This document shows positions 5,213 to 62,887 of a DNA stretch of 64,000 bases, piece by piece. Within the stretch, counting starts at the first letter, position 1; every line of letters begins with the position of its first letter. This DNA is from Gemmata palustris (GTDB lineage: Bacteria > Planctomycetota > Planctomycetia > Gemmatales > Gemmataceae). A model generated the notes under the pieces. It was not told the origin of the DNA, ran no database searches, and was given only the letters and a program-made list of their open reading frames with translations. A program made the position numbers and the translations under genes. The DNA lies in contig NZ_JAGKQQ010000001.1 of NCBI RefSeq assembly GCF_017939745.1, positions 2,418,001-2,482,000 on the forward strand, written 5' to 3'.

Positions 5213-5381
5213 TTGCGTGGGCCACGAAAATGCCCCCCGCGCAATCCACGACTTCAACAATCGTCGATCTGCCACCGAAACAATTCGGGATTCCGACAAT
5301 CTCAAGGCCCGGGTATCTCGTCGTAAATGAATCCCCGCGACGCGCGGGTTCACCCCAACGCCCCTTCCCGGAGTGCTGCCG

Positions 5382-5972
5382 ATGATGACCTCACTCGTTC
5401 TCTCGATGACCCTCGCGGCCCCGGTGCCCGCTCCGGCCCCGCCGATACCCGCCGGCCCCGCGCCCCGCATTCTGGAACTGAAGGCCGGCGCCGACGGCAA
5501 GATCATGGTCGTCGTGACCCGGACGGAGAAGATTCAGATCCAGGGCGGCGCGATCAACCCGAACGGTGCGGCCGTCGCTGCGCCCGTCGTTGCCCGCGCG
5601 AAGCAGGTCGAGCTCGGCGACGTGAAAGACCTCGTCGTCACCACCGCTGACGGGAAGAAGCTCGAAACCGCCGACGCGATCAAGAAGCTCGCCCCCGGTG
5701 GAACCGTGGTCGTCTCCGCCGACGGCAAACCGGTCAGCCCGACCTTCCTGAAGATGTTCAAGGACGACGTGCTCGTGCTCGCTTCGCCCGAGCTGATGGG
5801 CGCGGCACTGCCCGGCAAGCCGCTCCCCGGTGGGGTGCGCCCGCCGATCCAGATCCAACCGATCGCCCCGGGAATCCAGATCCAACCCGGCGTGATCCAG
5901 ATCCAGGTCGCGCCCGCGCTGCCGGCCGCACTACCGGCCGCCCCCGCGCCGGTACCGGCCCCGGGAAAGTGA
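5382..5972 (+). CDS. Secreted protein with one 'SADGKPVS' module
   Basis: The 196-residue product has an N-terminal hydrophobic stretch (MTSLVLSMTLAAPVPA) that looks like a Sec signal. A beta-rich domain follows, containing the pattern DGKKL-(x)n-LAPGGTVVVSADGKPVSPTFLKMFKDDVLVLASPEL (about 95-140). The tail is a low-complexity Ile/Gln/Pro repeat (QIQP, IQIQPG) and Ala/Pro. The same module occurs twice in the next gene, so the two are paralogues in tandem. I know no named domain for it. ATGs at 5382 and 5385 are both possible, with GGAG upstream. Translation ends 18 bp before a perfect terminator hairpin. Confidence 0.75.
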   Translation: MMTSLVLSMTLAAPVPAPAPPIPAGPAPRILELKAGADGKIMVVVTRTEKIQIQGGAINPNGAAVAAPVVARAKQVELGDVKDLVVTTADGKKLETADAIKKLAPGGTVVVSADGKPVSPTFLKMFKDDVLVLASPELMGAALPGKPLPGGVRPPIQIQPIAPGIQIQPGVIQIQVAPALPAALPAAPAPVPAPGK

Positions 5973-5990
5973 CCCGCGCATTTAAAGTCA

Positions 5991-6048
5991 CGCGGGCAAA
6001 AAGCGAACGGCAGGAGGAACACCTCCTGCCGTTCGCTTTTTGCCCGCG
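5991..6048 (+). terminator. 27-bp perfect hairpin between paralogous genes
   Basis: Left arm 5991-6017 and right arm 6022-6048 are exact reverse complements with a 4-nt AACA loop. The arm contains AAAAAGC, so the right arm carries CTTTTT inside the stem rather than after it. It lies just after the stop of the secreted protein and is the likely transcript end. Its length and perfection exceed a normal terminator and match several other hairpins in the window. Confidence 0.7.
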
Positions 6049-6167
6049 CGGGTCCGTGGCACTGTTTCGCGTTTGTAACAGCCAACCAGAGTCTTTACCC
6101 GGCCCGTTCGCCCGGGTATCCTGATTTCGATTGCCGTTCCGCTAACTCACCGACGGAGTTACACCAC

Positions 6168-7199
6168 ATGTATTCCTCGCTGGTGCTCTCGACGGCCCTG
6201 CTCGCTCCGGCCGCGCCGGTCCCGCGCGACACCGCACCGAACGCGACCGGCCCGGCGCCGCGCGTCCTCGCTCTGAAGGCCGACGAGAGCGGCACGGTCC
6301 GCGTCATGTACACGGTCCCGATCAAGCAGACCGTCACGAGCGTCTACTTCGAGATGGAAGGCAACAACCAAGTCCAGAAGCAGATCGAACAGGACGTCGT
6401 CACGACGCAGTATTTCCACAAAACACTGGCCGAATTCAACGGCAAGTTCGCAACGGCCGACGGGAGCCCGCTGACCTGCGACGAGGCCACCGCGCGCGTG
6501 AAAAACGGCGCGACCGTGCTGGCCTCTGCCGACGGCAAGCCGATCAGCAAGGCGTGGCTCCGGTCCGTGGGGGCGGACACGGTAGTAATGGTCGCCGAGG
6601 GGCTCTCGCACGCGAACGTTCAGTGGGGCGGCGACCCGTACCCCTCTACCCCGGCCCCGCAGCTCACGCTGCTCACGGCCAACGATAAAGGAACGGTGCT
6701 CGCCCCGACCACCAACCCGGCCGCTACCAACAACGACGGGTACAACGACGAGGTGATGTGGAACGGGGGCGGGCGGATGGTTCGGCTCCGCGGCGGGCGG
6801 TTCAACGGCGGCTACTACGGGGGCGGACAGCCGACCGAGGTCAAAGTGGCTCCCAAGCCGCTCACCGAGGTCAAGTTCGACGCCTTCGACCTCACCGGCA
6901 AGCTGGTCCCGAAGAGCGAAGTGTTCAAGCGGCTCGCGGCCGGCGGGATGGTGGTCGTGGCCGGCGACGGGCGCATGCCAGACGACACCTACCTGAAGGG
7001 CTTCCGCGAGGACGTGCTCGTGCTGATCGGGTCCGAACTCGTGATCCCGATCGCGCCAATCGATCAGACCAAGAAGAAGGTGAGCGAGCCGGGCTTCGTG
7101 AAGCGCAACATTCTGCCGATCGCGGAAAAGGCCCCGGCCGCGAACCCTCAACTCCCGCAAGCGATCCCGGTCCTGAGAGCCGGTGTGATCCTGAAATAA
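6168..7199 (+). CDS. Secreted protein with two 'SADGKPIS' modules, paralogue of the preceding gene
   Basis: The 343-residue protein starts with a likely signal peptide (MYSSLVLSTALLAPAAPV). It shares with its upstream neighbour the opening GPAPRVLALKADESGTV. Module 1 (GSPLTCDEATARVKNGATVLASADGKPIS) lies near residues 105-140 and module 2 (GKLVPKSEVFKRLAAGGMVVVAGDG) near 245-285. They are separated by an Asn/Gly/Tyr/Arg-rich linker (NGGYYGGG). Each module ends in a hydrophobic strand followed by a charged residue (VVMVAEGL, VLVLIGSEL). The function is unknown; the pattern suggests a small extracellular beta domain. The start follows GGAGTTACACC. Confidence 0.75.
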   Translation: MYSSLVLSTALLAPAAPVPRDTAPNATGPAPRVLALKADESGTVRVMYTVPIKQTVTSVYFEMEGNNQVQKQIEQDVVTTQYFHKTLAEFNGKFATADGSPLTCDEATARVKNGATVLASADGKPISKAWLRSVGADTVVMVAEGLSHANVQWGGDPYPSTPAPQLTLLTANDKGTVLAPTTNPAATNNDGYNDEVMWNGGGRMVRLRGGRFNGGYYGGGQPTEVKVAPKPLTEVKFDAFDLTGKLVPKSEVFKRLAAGGMVVVAGDGRMPDDTYLKGFREDVLVLIGSELVIPIAPIDQTKKKVSEPGFVKRNILPIAEKAPAANPQLPQAIPVLRAGVILK

Positions 7200-54771: not shown

Positions 54772-57762
54772 TTACTTCCCGCCGAGCGTCGTCAAGTCGA
54801 ACAGGTGGACCCCGCCGGACCCGCCGAGGGCCAACTGCTTGCCGTCCGGCCGGAGCGCCATTCCCCAGGCGATCCCCCGCGGAGCGACGAGCGTGACCGG
54901 CTTCGAGTTGGGGTCGTTCAGGTCCACCAGCACCCCCCGCGGTTGCGGCAGGCTCTCGGGGTCGAGTTTGGCTTCGTTGGCGAACTTGTTCGGGTCGGGC
55001 GGCGTCCACGTCGTGGCGAACCAGCGGCCGTCCCCGCTCACCACCGATCGCCACCCGCTCTGATCCAGTTTCACCGTCCGTGCGACCTTCTTCGCGGCCA
55101 CGTCCCAAATGTGTAAGGTGTTTTCGCCATCGATCGTCAGGAACCGCTGGCCGTTCGGGGTGAATCGTCCGGGAGTGTAGCCGAACCCGGTCGGGTTGGC
55201 CGGGGCGGTCCAGCGGGCGGTTTCCTCCAACGATTCGGTATCGAGGAACAGGGTGGTTGTGTTCTCTCCCTTCTTCCCGCCCAGGTTCACCGCCAGCAGT
55301 TTGCCGTCCGATGACGCGCCCACAAAGCGGGCGGCCCTCCCCGCCGGGCAGGGGTGTGTCTTCGACACCACCTCTTTGCCGTCTGGCAGGGAGTGAACGC
55401 GAACGGTCACTTCGCCCTCCTTGTCGAGTTGTGTGGTGGCGATGCCGCGGTCACCGGGCAGGAACACCGGCAAGTTGCCGTAGTTCCCCTTCAAGAGCGC
55501 CACGCGCTCGCCGGTGGTCGTGTCCCAGATCACCAGCCGGGCCTCCCGTTCACCGTCCCGCAAGTGGTCCTTGTGTTCGATCGAGTAGAGGAACCGGCCG
55601 CCCGGCGACAGGTCGGCCATCAGGTTGCCCCACCCGGTCGGCGGCGAGTACGGATCGAGTTCCTTCTTGGTGGTCAGATCCCACCGGCGGACGCGGCCGA
55701 GGTTCTCGATCAGGTCGGCTTTCTTGCCGCCCCGCTCCACCCGAGCGACGTTCTCCCCGCGGGTGGGAACGTACAGCGTCTTCCCGTCCGGGCTGAGCAG
55801 GGCGTACTCTTCGGCGAGGAAGGACGGATCCTTGCTGCCGCGGACGCGCTTCGGCCCGGCGATCTGGAGCAGTTCCTTCCGCCCGTCCACGTCCCAAAGT
55901 TGCACCACGCCGGAGGACATGTCACCCGCGACCAGCAACCGTTTGCCGTCGGGCGAGTAATGGACGAGGGGGATCGCCTCCTTTACGGGGTGGGGCAGGG
56001 TGGCGACGAGCCGTTCGGACACCGGCTCGGCTTTCGGGCCGGTGAGCTTGGGCGGCGGTTGGATGGCCATGCTGTGGGTGGTGGGGGCGACGTTCCCCTC
56101 CTTCCAGGCGCCGAAGTGGAACTTCACCGTGGCCGAGCCGGTCTCCTCGCCACACTTGAACCGGGCGTCGATGCTGTACCCGCACGTCCGGAAGTTCATC
56201 GGCACCGCCTGCGTGCGGGGCTTCTCCCCCGGCCTGGCCGGGAAGGTGATCTCCGCTACCGGATGGGCGTCGTCCGGGATGGTGTTGTCGTACGGGATGG
56301 AGGCGAGGGTGCCGGGACCGAAGCCGGGCGCGCCAACGACCATGCGGAGGCACGAGTCCTGCCCGGTGCGTAGGATTTGCTCGCCGAACTGGCTCCACAA
56401 CTCGAACCGCCCGCCGAGGTGGATGACCGGGGCGTCGGCGGTGGTGGGGGCGAACCGGAGCACCCCGTTGGCGTCGAACGGGCCGACGCGGTACTGCACC
56501 CGCCCGCCGGCCCCGGCCCCCTTCACCCCCGGCCGCTCGCTCTCCACTTGGAGGGCGTACACCACGGCCGTCTTATCCGTTTTCAGCGTCGGCTCGATCG
56601 GGGCGATGGTGGCGAGGAAGTTGTTGGCCACCAGGCGGTCGAGCCGTCCGGTGGAGACGGTCAACCCCTTGTGCGTCGTCCCGCCGACGGTCACGTCGCC
56701 CACCTCGAACTCTTGGTCCCCCTCTTCGTCCCCTTTCTGTTTCTTGGCGGCCACCTTCTCCCCGCCGTCGGTCAGGTCGCCGTTGCCGTTCTTGTCCACG
56801 TACAAGGTGTCGCCGTCGTGAACGAGCCACGCGCGGTGTTTGGCCCCCGCGTCGAACACCAGTAGGCAGTACGTCGGCTTACCTTGGTACTTCGGCTCCT
56901 GACCGATGGTGCGTTCGATCGTGACCGGCTTCTCCGGTTCGGCCGCCAACACCTTCGATTCGTCGGCTTTCCTCGGGTCGCCCGCCGACAGCGCGGCGAG
57001 CGCCACGACCATCGTGAGGAACCCGAGCAGTCCCGAGGCAGCCGTTCGTTTCAGCGTCATCATCTGAAGCACTCCGTGAGCGATGGCGGCGGCCGGGTCG
57101 GGCCGGGCTTCTCCGGCGACGAAGCTCAGCGCCGCCGTGGTGATGGTTCGGACCAGTCGATGAGACGCGGACGCCGTGCGTCCCAATTCGCTGAGGTAAA
57201 CGGCAAGGACACCGACCGGCACCGCGATCCCCCGCTGGGCCAGTCGCTTCCGGAGGAGCTCCTTCCCGCGGGTGAGCCAGCCGCACAGCGTCCCGGTCGG
57301 GCAGTTCAGTTGTTCGCTCGCCTCGGCGTAACTCAGCCCGTGCAGGTAGCACAGCACGATGGGCGTGCGGTACTTCTCCGGCAGGCGGTCGAGTTCGGCG
57401 TCGAGGACGCCGTCGAGCGGGACCGCGGGCCGAGGTGGGGCGGGCACGTCCGGCAGTTCGGTGAACGCCGGACGGCGACCGCGAACCCGCAGGGCACACC
57501 GATGGGCCACCCGCGCCAGCCATCCGGCGAGGTGATCCGCCCGCACCGATTCCGCCTTCTTGGCGAACACCAGGAACGCGGCCTGAGCGGCGTCTTCGGC
57601 GTCGTGAGAGTGGCCGAGGGTGCGGCGGCACACGTCGAACACCAGTCCGCGATACCGCCAGACCAGCAGTTCAAACGCTGCCTCGTTGCCGGCGATGAAC
57701 CGGCGGACGAGTTCGGCGTCGGGCGCGGCTCGCGGGGGAGCGGGGGGGTAGATCATCATCAC
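54772..57762 (-). CDS. ECF sigma factor fused to a membrane segment and WD40 propeller
   Basis: The 996-residue product begins with a complete ECF sigma: region 2 (FIAGNEAAFELLVWRYRGLVFDVCRRTLGHSHDAEDAAQAAFLVFAKKA) and region 4 (LPEKYRTPIVLCYLHGLSYAEASEQLNCPTGTLCGWLTRGKELLRKRL), ending about residue 185. A hydrophobic helix (SGLLGFLTMVVALAALSAG, about 249-267) follows. Residues 290-580 form a beta-rich region with EF-like DKNGNGDLTDGGE. The last 400 residues carry WD40-like blades (VHYSPDGKRLLVAGD, VQLWDV, HIWDV, LFDLTTLGGK). The layout couples cytoplasmic promoter recognition to an exterior sensor or scaffold. This fusion type is known from planctomycetes; its signal is not. Start ATG 57762 is the first of three in a row. 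Confidence 0.9.
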   Translation of the reverse strand: MMMIYPPAPPRAAPDAELVRRFIAGNEAAFELLVWRYRGLVFDVCRRTLGHSHDAEDAAQAAFLVFAKKAESVRADHLAGWLARVAHRCALRVRGRRPAFTELPDVPAPPRPAVPLDGVLDAELDRLPEKYRTPIVLCYLHGLSYAEASEQLNCPTGTLCGWLTRGKELLRKRLAQRGIAVPVGVLAVYLSELGRTASASHRLVRTITTAALSFVAGEARPDPAAAIAHGVLQMMTLKRTAASGLLGFLTMVVALAALSAGDPRKADESKVLAAEPEKPVTIERTIGQEPKYQGKPTYCLLVFDAGAKHRAWLVHDGDTLYVDKNGNGDLTDGGEKVAAKKQKGDEEGDQEFEVGDVTVGGTTHKGLTVSTGRLDRLVANNFLATIAPIEPTLKTDKTAVVYALQVESERPGVKGAGAGGRVQYRVGPFDANGVLRFAPTTADAPVIHLGGRFELWSQFGEQILRTGQDSCLRMVVGAPGFGPGTLASIPYDNTIPDDAHPVAEITFPARPGEKPRTQAVPMNFRTCGYSIDARFKCGEETGSATVKFHFGAWKEGNVAPTTHSMAIQPPPKLTGPKAEPVSERLVATLPHPVKEAIPLVHYSPDGKRLLVAGDMSSGVVQLWDVDGRKELLQIAGPKRVRGSKDPSFLAEEYALLSPDGKTLYVPTRGENVARVERGGKKADLIENLGRVRRWDLTTKKELDPYSPPTGWGNLMADLSPGGRFLYSIEHKDHLRDGEREARLVIWDTTTGERVALLKGNYGNLPVFLPGDRGIATTQLDKEGEVTVRVHSLPDGKEVVSKTHPCPAGRAARFVGASSDGKLLAVNLGGKKGENTTTLFLDTESLEETARWTAPANPTGFGYTPGRFTPNGQRFLTIDGENTLHIWDVAAKKVARTVKLDQSGWRSVVSGDGRWFATTWTPPDPNKFANEAKLDPESLPQPRGVLVDLNDPNSKPVTLVAPRGIAWGMALRPDGKQLALGGSGGVHLFDLTTLGGK

Positions 57763-58176
57763 CCTACTAGAGCCGATGCCGGCGGCAAAAAATGCGCGAA
57801 CTATCCGAACCGCCGCAACCCGGACGACGGCGCCGCAGGTTGGGTCTTCCCGATGCTGTTTTCGGAAGTTCCGTATGGTCTCTTGCGCTCCTCGGTATTT
57901 TACGGTACATATAAGACGTTACGGGATAGCGACGTGCCGAGTTGATCTACCGTCCGCGCACGCGTTTGAAACGGCCATGCTCCCAGCGGCGAGAACCTTA
58001 CGCCCGGCTATTCAAATCCCGGTGATCACGCCGTGTCTTCCCCGGGGTCCGATCGCCACGCACTCGCTCGTGCCCTGCCCCCTTCAAATGCCCCAGGTTG
58101 CAGATTCATCGCCCCAAGTGGTCCCACCTCCGCCAGAAATACTCGGAGCCTTGCTGTCGCCCGAGGGGAGGCCGAC
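57763..58176. other. Intergenic region upstream of the sigma-WD40 gene
   Basis: This 414-bp stretch holds no protein-like ORF. Its AT-rich part (about 57880-57930, TACGGTACATATAAGACG) may carry promoters, but no pair of boxes with good spacing stands out. It also contains the 3' end context of the DUF4130/UdgX gene. Confidence 0.4.
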
Positions 58177-59559
58177 TCAATACGGGACGCGCGATGAGTA
58201 GTGGGACGGCGGATGGTAGCCGGCCCCGGCGAGTTCTAAAGCCCGCGCGAGATGGGTGACCAGTTCCGCCCAAATCTCCGCCCGCGCCTCCTCCGGGGCG
58301 CGTAGGATCGTCGCAGGGAAGTGAGTTGCAATCGCGATCGTGCCGCCGGCCGGGAGCACTTCACCGCGGCGCTCGGTGAAGCGAAAGAGCGGGCCGAGTA
58401 CCGCCTTCGCGGCCAGCGGACCGAGGCACACAATTACCGCCGGCCGAAGTGCGGCCAGCTCCGCGAGCAGCCACGGCCGGCACGCACCGACCTCGCGGGC
58501 GTTGGCCCGGCGCGGTTCGCGGGCACCGTCCCGCTCGGCGAACGCGGTCTGCTTTACGGCCGTCGTCCGGTACACGGCGGCCCGGTCGATACCCGCTTCC
58601 TCCAGTGCAGTATCGAGCAGTTCGTCCGCGGCGCCACTCGTGTCGGGTTGATCGCCGACCAAAGCGATCCGCGCATCGGCCGGGCCGGTACCGAACACGG
58701 GCGGCACGATCGGTCCGCACAGCCCGCACGCGGTGCAATCGCGCGCCGCCGCGCGGAGGCCGTCGAGGTCGCGCGTCGCGGGCAAGAAGTCGGCGGCCGA
58801 CGGCGTTCCTTCGCTGTGTTGCACCATCGCGGCCACGCGATCGGCCGCTTCCGCCAGCAGGTCGGGGATGAGCGCGGCCTCCGGCAGCGTCGCCCAGTGC
58901 CGCACCGGCAACTCCTTCTTCATCGCCTTCAACTTGATCCGCGCCGGATTGAACGTCGCCCGGTAGTAGGTCTTCCACATGTCTTCGAGGACGTCCGGCG
59001 GGGGCGCGTCCCTCGCCGACACACCGGGGCCGAAGTGCAACCCCTCGCGATCCCACGTCACCGAGTCGTCTGGGGTCAGGACCGACCAGTGCATTTCGGG
59101 GAAGCGGCGGCGGAAGAACGGCGCGACCCGCCGCACGATGCGGTGGTCCGGCCGGTGCCACGCGACGAAGTGCTCGCCCACCTTGCGGAAGCGGACGAAG
59201 GCTTTCATCTTGTGCGCGTCGCGGCGGACCGATTTCTCGGCGCGGAACAGCCACGCGACGTCGTCATCGGTCGCGAGGTCGAGCAGGTGCGGTTCGCCGC
59301 GGGTCAGCCGCCACAGCGCGCGGTAGAGCCGGCCCCAGCGCTGCGGATCGCGGTGGCAGGAGACCGATTCCGCGAGCGCGACGAACGCCCGCGGCACCTC
59401 GAGCGCCGGACCGGCGGGCACGGGCGGTAGCTCGGCCGCGGCGAACAGGCCCGGCGCGGTGCCGTCGTCGAAGAGGACGTCGGCCGGCGAAACCTCGGCC
59501 GCGAGCAGTGCGCGAGCGGCACCGCGCCACGCGGCGAAGTCGGGGGCGGTAACGATCAT
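58177..59559 (-). CDS. DUF4130/UdgX-like uracil-DNA-glycosylase fusion with altered active site
   Basis: The 460-residue protein has an N-terminal DUF4130 domain (TIGR03915 type; CHRDPQRWGRLYRALWRL... FRAEKSVRRDAHKMKAFVRFR) to about residue 245. A UdgX-like glycosylase domain (TIGR03914 type) follows, with cysteine motif CTACGLC and a later GACRPWLLAEL typical of the 4Fe-4S cluster. The water-activating segment is GDQPDTSGA instead of GEQPGDxED, the R-loop (EPRRANAREVGACRPWL) lacks the His that UdgX uses to link uracil covalently, and the distal motif is HFPA instead of HPSA. It overlaps the upstream radical-SAM gene by 4 bp (ATGA). The role is DNA repair or modification by context. Confidence 0.85.
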   Translation of the reverse strand: MIVTAPDFAAWRGAARALLAAEVSPADVLFDDGTAPGLFAAAELPPVPAGPALEVPRAFVALAESVSCHRDPQRWGRLYRALWRLTRGEPHLLDLATDDDVAWLFRAEKSVRRDAHKMKAFVRFRKVGEHFVAWHRPDHRIVRRVAPFFRRRFPEMHWSVLTPDDSVTWDREGLHFGPGVSARDAPPPDVLEDMWKTYYRATFNPARIKLKAMKKELPVRHWATLPEAALIPDLLAEAADRVAAMVQHSEGTPSAADFLPATRDLDGLRAAARDCTACGLCGPIVPPVFGTGPADARIALVGDQPDTSGAADELLDTALEEAGIDRAAVYRTTAVKQTAFAERDGAREPRRANAREVGACRPWLLAELAALRPAVIVCLGPLAAKAVLGPLFRFTERRGEVLPAGGTIAIATHFPATILRAPEEARAEIWAELVTHLARALELAGAGYHPPSHYSSRVPY

Positions 59560-60779
59560 GCGTACCCATCCAGATCGTCGAACAGCGTCGGCTGGACCGA
59601 CTTCTTCAACCCCACGGTGTCGAGTTTCCGCAGAGCCGGATTGTGGTCGCCGGTGAGCACGAACGGAGCGGCGCTTTTCCAGTTCACGCGCAACGCGCGC
59701 AGGTCGGCGACGGTCAGGGCGTGGTGCCGGCGGACCGCCAGGATGCGCTCGACGTTGCGCACCCCGACGCCGGGGATCCGCAGGAGTAACTCGCGCGGCG
59801 CGGCGTTCACGTCTACCGGGAACCGGTCACGGTTCGCCAGCGCCCACGCCAGTTTCGGGTCCACGTCGAGCGCGAGGTTCGCGCCGGGTGCGACCACTTC
59901 ACTTACTTCAAAGCCGTAGAAGCGGAGCAGCCAGTCGGCTTGGTACAGGCGGTGCTCGCGCAAGAGCGGCGGGCGCAAAGCGGGCAGCCGGGCGTCGGCG
60001 TGCGGGGTCGGGCTGTACGCCGAGTAGTACACGCGCCGCAACTTCTGCGTGCGGTACAGTTCGTCGGCCGTGCCGAGAATGACGCCGTCGGTGGTCGGCG
60101 TCGCGCCCACCACCATCTGCGTGCTCTGCCCGGCCGGGGCGAACACCGGCGCCTTCAGCCCGGCCTTCCTGTCGGCCGCGCGCTCGGCGATGCCGTCGGC
60201 CACGGTGGTCATCGTGCCGGTGATGTCCGCGCGGGTCTTCTCGGGCGCGAGCTGGTGCAGGTCTTGTGCGGTGGGCAGTTCGATGTTCGCGCTGAGCCGG
60301 TCGGCCCAGCGCCCGGCCTCCGCGACCAGTTCGGCCGACGCGCCGGGGATCAGTTTCAGGTGAATGTAGCCGCCGAACCCGTGACCTTCGCGCAGCCCAC
60401 GGGCCACCGCGACGAGTTGCTCCATCGTGCCGTCGATGCTGCCGACGATGCCGGAACTGAGGAACAGCCCCTCGATGTAGTTGCGGCGGTAGAACTCGAC
60501 CGTCAGGTCGATGACTTCCGCAACGGTGAACCGCGCTCGTGGGGTGTCGCTCGACACGCGGTTGACGCAGAACTTGCAGTCGTAAACGCAGTAGTTGGTG
60601 AGTAGCAATTTGAGCAGCGATACGCACCGGCCGTCGGGCGTGTAGCTGTGGCAAATGCCCATCCCTTCGGTCGAACCGAGCCGGCTGCCGCGGCGGGTGC
60701 TCTTGCTCCCGCTGCTGGCGCAGGAGGCGTCGTACTTGGCGGCGTCGGCCAGCACTTCGAGTTTGCGGCGGGTGTCCAC
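59556..60779 (-). CDS. Radical SAM DNA modification/repair protein (TIGR03916 type)
   Basis: The 407-residue enzyme has a radical-SAM core with CVYDCKFC (Cys64, 68, 71) binding the 4Fe-4S cluster. It has a conserved N-terminal Cys/Ser-rich lead (YDASCASSGSKSTRRGSRLGS) and a C-terminal helix-hairpin-helix (LLLRIPGVGVRNVERILAVRR) that would grip DNA. Members are named putative DNA modification/repair proteins and co-occur with the DUF4130/UdgX partner that follows here in an ATGA overlap. The reaction is unknown; spore-photoproduct-lyase-like chemistry on a base is a reasonable guess. It begins at ATG 60779, 32 bp from the predicted start of transcription. Confidence 0.92.
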   Translation of the reverse strand: MDTRRKLEVLADAAKYDASCASSGSKSTRRGSRLGSTEGMGICHSYTPDGRCVSLLKLLLTNYCVYDCKFCVNRVSSDTPRARFTVAEVIDLTVEFYRRNYIEGLFLSSGIVGSIDGTMEQLVAVARGLREGHGFGGYIHLKLIPGASAELVAEAGRWADRLSANIELPTAQDLHQLAPEKTRADITGTMTTVADGIAERAADRKAGLKAPVFAPAGQSTQMVVGATPTTDGVILGTADELYRTQKLRRVYYSAYSPTPHADARLPALRPPLLREHRLYQADWLLRFYGFEVSEVVAPGANLALDVDPKLAWALANRDRFPVDVNAAPRELLLRIPGVGVRNVERILAVRRHHALTVADLRALRVNWKSAAPFVLTGDHNPALRKLDTVGLKKSVQPTLFDDLDGYA

Positions 60780-60817
60780 GGCGCGCCTGCTTTTATTACG
60801 GGCGTACAGATGTGAAC

Positions 60818-60846
60818 ACTATACCAGACACCCGGCGCGGTGTCAA
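60818..60846 (-). promoter_or_regulatory. Near-consensus sigma-70-type promoter of the radical-SAM operon
   Basis: On the minus strand TTGACA (60841-60846) is followed after exactly 17 bp by TATAGT (60818-60823). The predicted transcript starts about 30 nt before the ATG. The first transcribed bases include GTTCACAT, which also opens the palindromic operator at 25736. Confidence 0.8.
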
Positions 60847-60901
60847 AGCGAACCGCACCGTCACGCCGGGTCGCGCGATCGGGTCGTGACGGGTCGTAGG
60901 A

Positions 60902-62723
60902 TCACGCCGGTTCGCGGCCGAACACAAGGCACTCGAACGGGCACAACTCCCGGCACTCGTCGCCCTCCGGCCGCGCGCCGCTGTAGGCGGGCTGCTCCGA
61001 ACTGAAGAGCATGCGCGCCCCCGGTGGCACATCCGTCGGCAGCGGGTGCGGGTCCGCGGACAAGTTCAGGTACGCGTACAGGGAGCTCGGTTCGGTGCCG
61101 CGAACGAACTCCAACACCGGGCCGTTCGCTGAATCGGGAAGGAGCCGCGCGGCGGGTTACGAAGTCCTTGAGCGCCGGCCACCGGCGGCGGGCGGCGAGC
61201 AGGTCGCGGTACAGGTGGCGCAGCCCGGCCCGCGGCAACTGGTCCGACCACGTCCAACTGAGGCGCGACGCGGTGAACGACAGCGTCGCCTGCGGGTCGG
61301 GCACCTCGCCTTGGAGGGCGTAGTCGTTTTTTCGGCCGCGCCGCACCGCTTCGACCAGCCCGCGGTCCCCGAACGAGCAGAAGAACAAGAACGGGTTCGT
61401 CTCGCCGTACTCCTCGCCCATGAACAGGAACGGCAGGTGCGGCGACAACAGCATCAGGCTCGCGGCCAGGCGCTGCACCGGCGGCCCGACCAGCGCCGCC
61501 AACCGCTCGCCGCGCGCCCGGTTGCCGACGTGGTCGTGGTTCTGGACGCCGACCACGAACCGGTCGCCGGGCACGTCGCGGGCCGGCGCGCCCCACCGCC
61601 GCCCGCGGTGCCGGCTGTACCGCCCGTCCAGAACGAACGTCTTCTCCAGTACCCGCGGGAGGTCGGCGGCCGGGCCGTAGTCGACGTACTTGCCGTGCCG
61701 CTCGCCGGTGAGGAACGCGATCAGCGCGTGGTGGAAGTCCTCGTTCCATTCGGCGTCCAGCCCGTAACCGCCCTGTTGTGGCGGCAGCACGATGCGGACG
61801 TCGTTCAGCAGGCTTTCCGCGATGACGTGGAGCGGCCGGCCGAACGGACCCGCGGCGCGGTCCGCTTCCTCTTTGATCTCTCTCGTGATGTGGGCGGGGC
61901 TGACGTCGAAGATGCTCTGCGTGGCGTCGAGTCGCAGCCCGTCGAGGTGGTATTCCTCGACCCAGTGGCGAACGTTGTCGAGGACGAAATCGCGGACGCC
62001 GTCGGACCCCGGCCCGTCGTAGTTGAGGGCCGCGCCCCACGCGGTGCGGTACCGGTCCGAGTAGTACGGGCCGAACTCGCCGGCGTAGTTGCCCTCCGGC
62101 CCGAGGTGGTTGTACACGACATCGAGGACCGCCGCGAGGCCGCAAGCGTGGCACGCATTCACCAACCGCCGCAAGCCTTCGGGGCCGCCATAAGTGTCCT
62201 GCGGGGCGAACAGGTGAACCCCGTCATAGCCCCAGTTCCGCGCGCCGGGGAACTGCGCCACCGGCATGATCTCGATCGCGGTGACGCCGAGATCGAGTAA
62301 CTCCGGCAAGCGCGGTATGATCGCGTCGAAGGTGCCTTCGGCGGTGAACGTCCCGACGTGCAGTTCGTAGAAGACGAGGTCCTCGCGCGGGACCCCGCGC
62401 CACCCCTGGTCGGTCCATACGAATTTACCCGGGAACACCACCGCCGAGGGCCGGTGGACGCCGTCCGGTTGCCACCGCGAGCACGGGTCCGGGCGTTCCG
62501 CCCCGCCGCCGAGACGGTACGCGTACCGCTGCCCCTCGGGCACGCCTCCTTCGGAGTGCGCGAAGTAGCCGTCGCCCTCGGATCGCATTGGCACGTTCCG
62601 CCGGCGGTCGCCGTCGATCAGAACCAGTTCGACGCGCTTCACCTTTGGGGCCCACACCCGCCACGTCACGGCACCATCGGGTTGAATTGTCGTACCACAC
62701 CTTCGGATCTCTGCCGCTCCCAT
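60902..62723 (-). CDS. treZ: Malto-oligosyltrehalose trehalohydrolase, frameshifted near the 3' end
   Basis: The GH13 enzyme releases trehalose from maltooligosyl-trehalose. Present are the N-terminal beta domain (VTWRVWAPKVKRVELVL), region I DVVYNHLGPEGNY, nucleophile region GLRLDATQSI, acid/base IAESLLND and region IV VQNHDHVGNR. Up to LKDFVTRRAA the frame is intact; then a single extra G near 61141-61156 shifts it. The true C-terminus (LEFVRGTEPSSLYAYLNLSADPHPLP... RELCPFECLVFGREPA) continues in the neighbouring frame to 60902. Without correction the protein would end in an Arg/Pro-rich tail at 60861. No treY or other trehalose gene is near. ATG 62723 has GGGAG upstream. Confidence 0.85.
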
Positions 62724-62887
62724 CTCGTCTCCCGTATCACAATTCTCGTTCGTCGCGGGGCGATGGCGGTGCAACATTAGGGCCAGCGCAATGCACAAGC
62801 GCTCGCACCAGTCGAGCCGCAGGCGCCCCGCGGTTCGAGCGGGTCCCGGCCGCCCGTGCCGGAGATGAAACTGACGAGGGCGACGCG

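Follow-up and report, generated by a model that had tools for sequence, protein, structure and literature searches.

Loss of the UdgX catalytic residues in a planctomycete clade of DUF4130–UdgX fusion proteins encoded beside a radical-SAM gene

DUF4130–UdgX fusion proteins encoded beside a radical S-adenosylmethionine (radical-SAM) protein are already known to NCBIfam, both as a pairing and as an architecture. UdgX, a uracil-DNA glycosylase (UDG), is treated in the parts of the literature available to us as a uracil cross-linker. According to Table 1 of PMC10776899, the D59A, F65A, N91A, K94A, R107A, and H178A mutants of Mycobacterium smegmatis UdgX (MsmUdgX) have no detectable activity, and H109A retains uracil excision with cross-linking gone. 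For the D59, R107, and K94 mutants, the authors of that paper point to unfolding. Replacement of H109 by S, G, A, C, Q, or K confers ordinary glycosylase activity at varying levels (PMC10359453). Here we analyse one such pair from Gemmata palustris, located in a 64,000-nucleotide stretch (contig NZ_JAGKQQ010000001.1, positions 2,418,001 to 2,482,000), hereafter the window.

The two open reading frames (ORFs) of the pair were confirmed on the minus strand of the window, the radical-SAM gene upstream and the fusion gene downstream. The UDG half of the fusion lacks the known catalytic residues, a loss common to a clade of five planctomycete proteins. We lean towards the reading that a non-catalytic UDG module is kept in an otherwise intact DUF4130/radical-SAM unit. 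On this view, the uracil pocket and the histidine that forms the cross-link would have been lost once, in a single ancestor of this small clade, and the two-protein unit would have retained the UDG fold, with most of the cluster cysteines, for a structural or docking role. The UdgX domain would be a pseudo-enzyme, with the DUF4130 and radical-SAM pair intact. The features are as follows (catalytic residues in UdgX numbering).

58177..59559, minus strand: DUF4130–UdgX fusion protein, 460 amino acids (aa), with an ATGA overlap with the upstream gene.
58876..59559, minus strand: conserved DUF4130 (TIGR03915) half, residues 1–228, with 33 of 33 near-invariant positions kept in all five clade members.
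58222..58821, minus strand: UDG-fold half, residues 247–446, with a UdgX-like predicted fold and without the catalytic residues; PF03167 at 59.4 bits.
58717..58737, minus strand: CxxCxxC (C275, C278, C281), located by alignment; C281 fixed in the clade.
58633..58656, minus strand: shortened motif A, GDQPDTSG, residues 302–309; E52 replaced by D303, D59 and F65 deleted.
58486..58569, minus strand: motif 3 and former R-loop, residues 331–358; N91 replaced by T333, H95 by Q337, H109 by P349.
58480..58482, minus strand: C360, a kept cluster cysteine (ACRPW), located by alignment.
58300..58326, minus strand: motif B, THFPATILR, residues 412–420; H178 replaced by F414, P415 and R420 kept.
59556..60779, minus strand: radical-SAM protein with a helix-hairpin-helix (HhH) region, TIGR03916, 407 aa, GTG start, CxxxCxxC at C64, C68, and C71.
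60818..60846, minus strand: sigma-70-type promoter TTGACA-17-TATAGT, 11 of 12 consensus matches.

In NCBIfam profile searches, the N-terminal half of the fusion scores 195.4 bits against TIGR03915 (cut-off 112.25) and has an overlapping TIGR03916 neighbour, which places it in the family. The radical-SAM protein scores 538.2 bits against TIGR03916 (cut-off 343.5) and carries the CxxxCxxC motif, in agreement with the claim of the original prediction, made from the sequence of the window, that the family pairing is a known one. The C-terminal half falls under the cut-off of the UdgX family TIGR03914 (134.1 bits against 189.95), and scores 59.4 bits against PF03167. Against the family-4 UDG profile TIGR00758 the fusion reaches 63.8 bits, under the cut-off of 125.3, and reads GDQPD where GE(A/G)PG is expected.

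An initial alignment of the fusion with 15 further planctomycete proteins was followed by a MAFFT alignment of 114 distinct fusions, 109 of which lie outside the altered clade. The clade consists of the fusions of the window genome (G000) and of genomes G016, G002, G053, and G531. Sequences were collected with patterns and profiles for DUF4130 and radical-SAM proteins, independently of the UDG site. The sample comprises the best 80 of 590 confirmed matches plus planctomycete genomes; rarer losses may occur elsewhere. The 109 rows exclude the family-4-only matches among L005–L030, duplicates, five partial sequences (L047, L048, L069, L168, and L169), and the genome's own family-4 locus (L137). 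Four radical-SAM loci (L152, L161, L162, and L167), with no fusion match in the stored flank, are uncounted. Among the partial sequences that extend into the motifs, L069 has them intact, and L048 reads GEQPGHEED, with D56 changed and N91, H109, and H178 intact. One intact row, L083, deviates at 4 of the 35 near-invariant UDG sites, yet keeps N91, H109, and H178.

All 109 other fusions have E52, F65, N91, K94, R107, H109, H178, and R184; E52, D59, N91, and H109 are missing from all five members of the clade. Position 52 is D throughout the clade, and D59 is deleted throughout. N91 is replaced by T in the window and G016, by H in G002 and G053, and by Q in G531. H95 gives way to Q in the window and G016 and to R in G002, G053, and G531. 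At H109, three members have P and two a deletion; in the window this position corresponds to P349 in the MAFFT alignment and to R350 in our reading of the HMMER alignment. F65 is lost in four of the five, G053 retaining F in this alignment. Four rather than five are counted because locus L004 shows F at this position (L171 shows L), MAFFT having paired the RP of these two rows with the later RPF; the gaps at Q53 and P54 in the same rows are an alignment choice. In the window, motif A has changed from GEQPGDxED...PF to GDQPDTS, with nine columns deleted, and motif B reads FPATILR against HPS(S/A)(L/V)(L/V)R in UdgX. The former R-loop takes three forms in the clade (window and G016; G002; G053 and G531). 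All five members retain K94 and R184 and, in the DNA loop, P415 and R420; R107 is kept in the window as R347.

The original prediction had described these same changes, namely GEQPGDxED becoming GDQPDTSGA, HPSA becoming HFPA, and absence of the covalent histidine of the R-loop, and each holds in the alignment. The altered site is real but not private to the window, being common to the clade except for the loss of H178, which is replaced by F in the window alone and kept in the other four. The possibility that catalytic residues are displaced but present was checked by alignment for H109 and does not hold: residues 337–364 of the window fusion (QTAFAERDGAREPRRANAREVGACRPWL) include no histidine, so the nucleophile is not merely displaced locally. 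For H178, the only displacement candidate is H413, one residue before F414; G016 and G002 also have a histidine there and keep H178 as well.

Over the whole UDG half, 15 of the 35 near-invariant positions are kept in all five members and another 10 are kept in none of them (E303, G306, D307, E309, G313, P319, N342, H346, F347, and H358 in the numbering of G464). The positions not kept by all five thus number 20 of 35, versus none of 33 in the DUF4130 half; the window fusion by itself keeps 21 of the 35. Conversely, P286, D303, R331, P381, and L391 are identical in all five members and absent from all 109 intact rows. The same comparison found no clade-specific fixed position in the DUF4130 half. 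These five residues may compensate for the deletion or may point to a new role.

With D59, F65, N91, H178, and H109 missing together, the window fusion should, by analogy with the MsmUdgX mutants, perform neither cross-linking nor uracil excision. In the window genome, three further matches to the UDG superfamily carry motifs resembling those of Ung (GQDPY, HPSPF), Mug (GINPG), and family 4, and uracil repair there is probably independent of the altered fusion.

The loss has a single origin. In a whole-protein tree of 34 fusions from six phyla, the first four altered members group together with support of 100/100. The five-member clade is monophyletic in separate trees of the DUF4130 half (100/99) and the UDG half (100/100), and the intact fusion of G464 is its sister in both (100/99 and 100/98, respectively). 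The stem leading to the clade has a length of 0.52 in the UDG tree, against 0.22 in the DUF4130 tree. In G464 (L043) the R-loop reads LFRQH against KRRIH, K105 and R106 being gone and R107 and H109 retained; this is a possible halfway form.

The clade spans two planctomycete families: G016 and G002 share the genus of the window genome, and G053 and G531 belong to the other family. Among 95 genomes of the window's family, seven have a TIGR03915 match, six of them above the cut-off: altered in G000, G016, and G002, intact in G453, G464, and G444, and split over two contigs in G443, where N91, H109, and H178 are intact. Among 45 genomes of G053's order, the DUF4130 gene occurs in two and is altered in both. 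This patchy occurrence suggests that the gene pair may have been transferred between lineages.

The cluster cysteines are kept in part. C275 and C278 of the CxxC pair, together with C360, are present in all five members, so that the statement of the original prediction that the cluster cysteines are kept is secure only in part. The third ligand, which we take to be the Cys of the IKC/VKC motif in family-4 UDGs, is another matter. Its position holds Cys in the genome's own family-4 UDG (IKC, L137), His in 107 of the 109 intact fusions, and Q or R in the clade (Q337 in the window). All five members have Cys at position 281, as do the sister G464 and 19 of the 109 intact rows. It is plausible, judging from the alignment, that C281 substitutes for the lost third ligand in a ligand swap.

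The AlphaFold2 model of the fusion, computed from 54 alignment rows, has a mean predicted local distance difference test score (pLDDT) of 91.0. Residues 248–446 of the model match UdgX structures with Z up to 27.2 (6l5b and 6iod) at 44–46% identity; the superposition on 6l5b (Z 27.2) covers 195 residues with a root mean square deviation of 2.0 Å. Most family-4 UDG structures give Z of 21–23. The predicted fold is inclined towards that of UdgX, since the input alignment holds UdgX-like rows. Matches to the UDG half filled the list, and this structure search hardly covers the DUF4130 half. The UDG half is thus predicted to keep a family-4-like UDG fold, in line with the original prediction, and a structural or docking role is one possible use of a fold so kept.

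Constraint was compared by the ratio of nonsynonymous to synonymous substitution rates (ω or dN/dS). Pairwise dN/dS is unreliable here, the NG86 dS being negative for one pair; hence ω was estimated by codon maximum likelihood, and conclusions were drawn from fits to the clade alone and to five intact control sets, three from an automatic clique search and two hand-picked planctomycete sets. A stem ω of 4.4 for DUF4130 (branch length 0.034) was rejected as an artefact of a fit with distant outgroups, in which branches were saturated. Within the clade, ω is 0.061 for DUF4130, 0.181 for UDG, and 0.043 for the radical-SAM protein. A UDG ω of 1 is rejected (twice the log-likelihood difference, 401). 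The ω of the UDG core is 0.135 without gaps and 0.164 with gapped columns, against 0.070–0.156 in the five intact sets. The rate of motifs A and 3 relative to the core is 1.51 without gaps and 1.34 with gapped columns, against 0.21–0.43 in the intact sets; earlier, looser motif ranges gave 1.97 against 0.29–0.47 in three intact sets, and the stricter, lower figures are used here. The excess sits in motif 3 and the R-loop (0.26) and in motif B, where ω is 0.31 in the clade against 0.002–0.023 in the intact sets. By these comparisons, the UDG core is under near-normal constraint and the catalytic motifs are without extra constraint, indicating that the active site has lost its extra constraint and that the fold is still constrained.

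Several observations weigh against a non-catalytic but retained module. The difference between motif and core rates in the clade does not reach significance (p = 0.06 and 0.10). The motif codons still aligned are few, and motif A alone (9 codons) has ω of 0.115, not above the core. The UDG half is more relaxed overall than DUF4130, equality of the two ω values being rejected at p = 2e-20, and slow decay would give the same. H178 in four members and the acid D303 in all five make residual chemistry possible in the relatives. Because loss of D59 or R107 reportedly unfolds MsmUdgX, those mutants say less about catalysis. Finally, motif B, which touches DNA in UdgX, is unconstrained in the clade; a DNA-binding scaffold is for this reason not the favoured version of the module. 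A lesion-binding adaptor for the radical-SAM enzyme, one of two roles offered by the original prediction, is possible, and P415 and R420 are kept in all five members, but lesion binding is not indicated because motif B as a whole is unconstrained.

The UDG domain might instead be decaying, without a function of its own, carried by its fusion to DUF4130 and constrained only so far as to prevent misfolding. We regard this as possible, though less likely than the retained module. The log-identity ratio of UDG to DUF4130 is 1.70–2.74 in the 10 clade pairs, against a median of 1.09 and a maximum of 2.00 in 71 intact pairs; the lowest clade value is reached by 6 of the 71 and the clade median by one. 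Decay also agrees with the varied lengths and sequences of the motifs among relatives, and with four loci (L132, L134, L135, and L136) in which DUF4130 occurs without UDG. However, the core ω lies within or just above the intact range, the reading frame is open in all five members with the domain still undeleted, and the five residues fixed in the clade and found in none of the 109 intact rows have no counterpart in the DUF4130 half. The ratio of UDG to DUF4130 ω is 2.97 in the clade; of three intact sets, one also shows an excess, though a milder one (1.74, p = 8e-8), and the remaining two have ratios of 1.20 and 0.84.

A more elaborate form of the non-catalytic module is that the UDG half was rebuilt as a docking or electron-relay subunit of the radical-SAM unit, with the pocket removed, the cluster re-ligated (H95 lost, C281 fixed) and kept, and the five clade-specific positions marking a new interface. 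We hold this to be rather unlikely. If true, the clade would represent a naturally arisen variant of the repair system in which its functions are separated.

It is improbable that the pocket was retuned, so that the protein is still a glycosylase but for a different, larger or oxidised, base. The predicted UDG fold, D303 and R184 in all five members, and H178 in four could serve such an enzyme, and motifs vary among other UDG families (PMC10359453). A single new lesion specificity is disfavoured because the replacement residues differ within the clade (T, T, H, H, and Q at N91, three forms of the R-loop) and renewed constraint on the motifs is absent; the window fusion lacks H178, F65, and D59 in addition. 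The suggestion of the original prediction that the protein reads a different base lesion is thus not supported.

More doubtful still is an ordinary water-using uracil glycosylase created by the loss of H109, as in the MsmUdgX H109S, G, A, and C mutants. D303 could in principle activate water, but N91, F65, and D59, each individually needed in MsmUdgX, are also lost in the window fusion, as is H178, and the genome already has Ung-like, Mug-like, and family-4-like genes. A sequencing or assembly error in the window is very unlikely, since four other genomes, including G053 (whose fusion is a duplicate of the L052 fusion from Paludisphaera soli), have the same losses except that of H178, and the frame is intact.

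The radical-SAM partner is strongly conserved: C64, C68, and C71, as well as C20, C43, and C52, occur in every one of the 46 rows aligned. Its AlphaFold2 model has a pLDDT of 84.9, with a barrel nearest to those of lipoyl synthase and HydE (Z 17–18, a likeness of fold, not of reaction); residues after 304 are barely covered by the structure search. A putative DNA modification/repair radical-SAM protein is listed in a table of PMC8307549. The DNA-repair role of the DUF4130/radical-SAM core is predicted, being assigned from family names. At L132, L134, L135, and L136, the radical-SAM gene is closely followed downstream by a gene for a TIGR03915 protein of 246–265 aa that has no UDG domain. The UDG half is thus optional in the family. 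At L133, a DUF4130 gene was not identified in the fetched region. L136 (CAKLQH020000003.1) is labelled Acinetobacter phage and is probably bacterial chromosome, because glyS and glyQ accompany the pair.

In G016 (L049), the 3' end of the radical-SAM gene is interrupted by a 1.5-kb insertion (5344–6866) with perfect 12-bp inverted ends, a 9-bp direct repeat (ATCACAACC), and a 490-aa ORF that by eye looks like a transposase. The pair of G016 seems to have been recently broken and uncoupled.

In the window, the stop of the radical-SAM gene is shared with the start of the fusion gene in a 4-base ATGA overlap. The overlap is consistent with the translational coupling asserted by the original prediction but is no proof of it. 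The near-consensus promoter it named is borne out, TTGACA-17-TATAGT being the sole promoter-like site in 58000–61000 (mean 0.0 in 50 shuffles). In G016 and G002, TTTGAC and a stretch around the -10 box are recognisable upstream of the same radical-SAM gene. The sequence GTGT[T/C]CAC, at about 60812–60819 on the minus strand, overlapping or just past the -10 box, is common to the window, G016, and G002 and is a possible operator.

The next gene downstream (54772–57762, minus strand) encodes a protein that joins an extracytoplasmic function (ECF)-type sigma factor to a C-terminal half that is long and WD40-like. Within the 9–11 kb around the pair in five other genomes, including G464, this gene was found in none, and the window's other neighbour, TreZ (60861–62798, minus strand), only in G016. 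The C-terminus of TreZ matches that of G016 in two different reading frames, and one of the two genes may have a frameshift near its 3' end.

The altered clade keeps the unit and discards the cross-linking chemistry for which UdgX is studied, which suggests that the unit may do its core job without trapping uracil sites covalently. It is a natural test of whether the unit needs UDG chemistry, and the window or G002 protein and the intact G464 protein make a ready pair for learning the core function. Among the papers listed in the literature searches, with subscription papers outside their scope, we found neither an experimental report on the DUF4130/radical-SAM unit nor a report of inactive UdgX homologues, the latter being weak evidence of absence.

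Several known systems resemble this one in part. Poxvirus D4 and gammaherpesvirus UNG are a precedent for the use of a UDG fold as a structural part of a DNA machine (PMC4450493, PMC5934625, and PMC10312458). The viral proteins, however, act in viral replication complexes, with no radical-SAM partner mentioned in the sections of these papers available, and each herpesvirus UNG studied retains uracil excision (PMC10312458). Stand-alone DUF4130/radical-SAM pairs (L132, L134, L135, and L136) have the same order of radical-SAM protein and TIGR03915 protein, but their DUF4130 protein is without UDG (a separate nearby UDG gene was not searched for), whereas in the window UDG is present and altered. 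UdgX of M. smegmatis (PDB 6ail, 6ajo, and 6iod; TIGR03914) resembles the window fusion in its UDG fold as predicted (Z 26–27 for most entries), in the CxxC and ACRPW cysteines, and in the kept equivalents of K94, R107, and R184. The two differ in that E52, D56, D59, F65, N91, H95, H109, and H178 are changed or deleted in the window fusion, the R-loop sequence is gone, and the score lies under the TIGR03914 cut-off. With the other DUF4130–UdgX fusions beside a radical-SAM gene (TIGR03915, TIGR03914, and TIGR03916), the window has in common the gene pair, the domain architecture, all near-invariant positions of DUF4130, and all radical-SAM cysteines; the catalytic residues, in contrast, are present in 109 of the 109 fusions compared and lost in the five-member clade.

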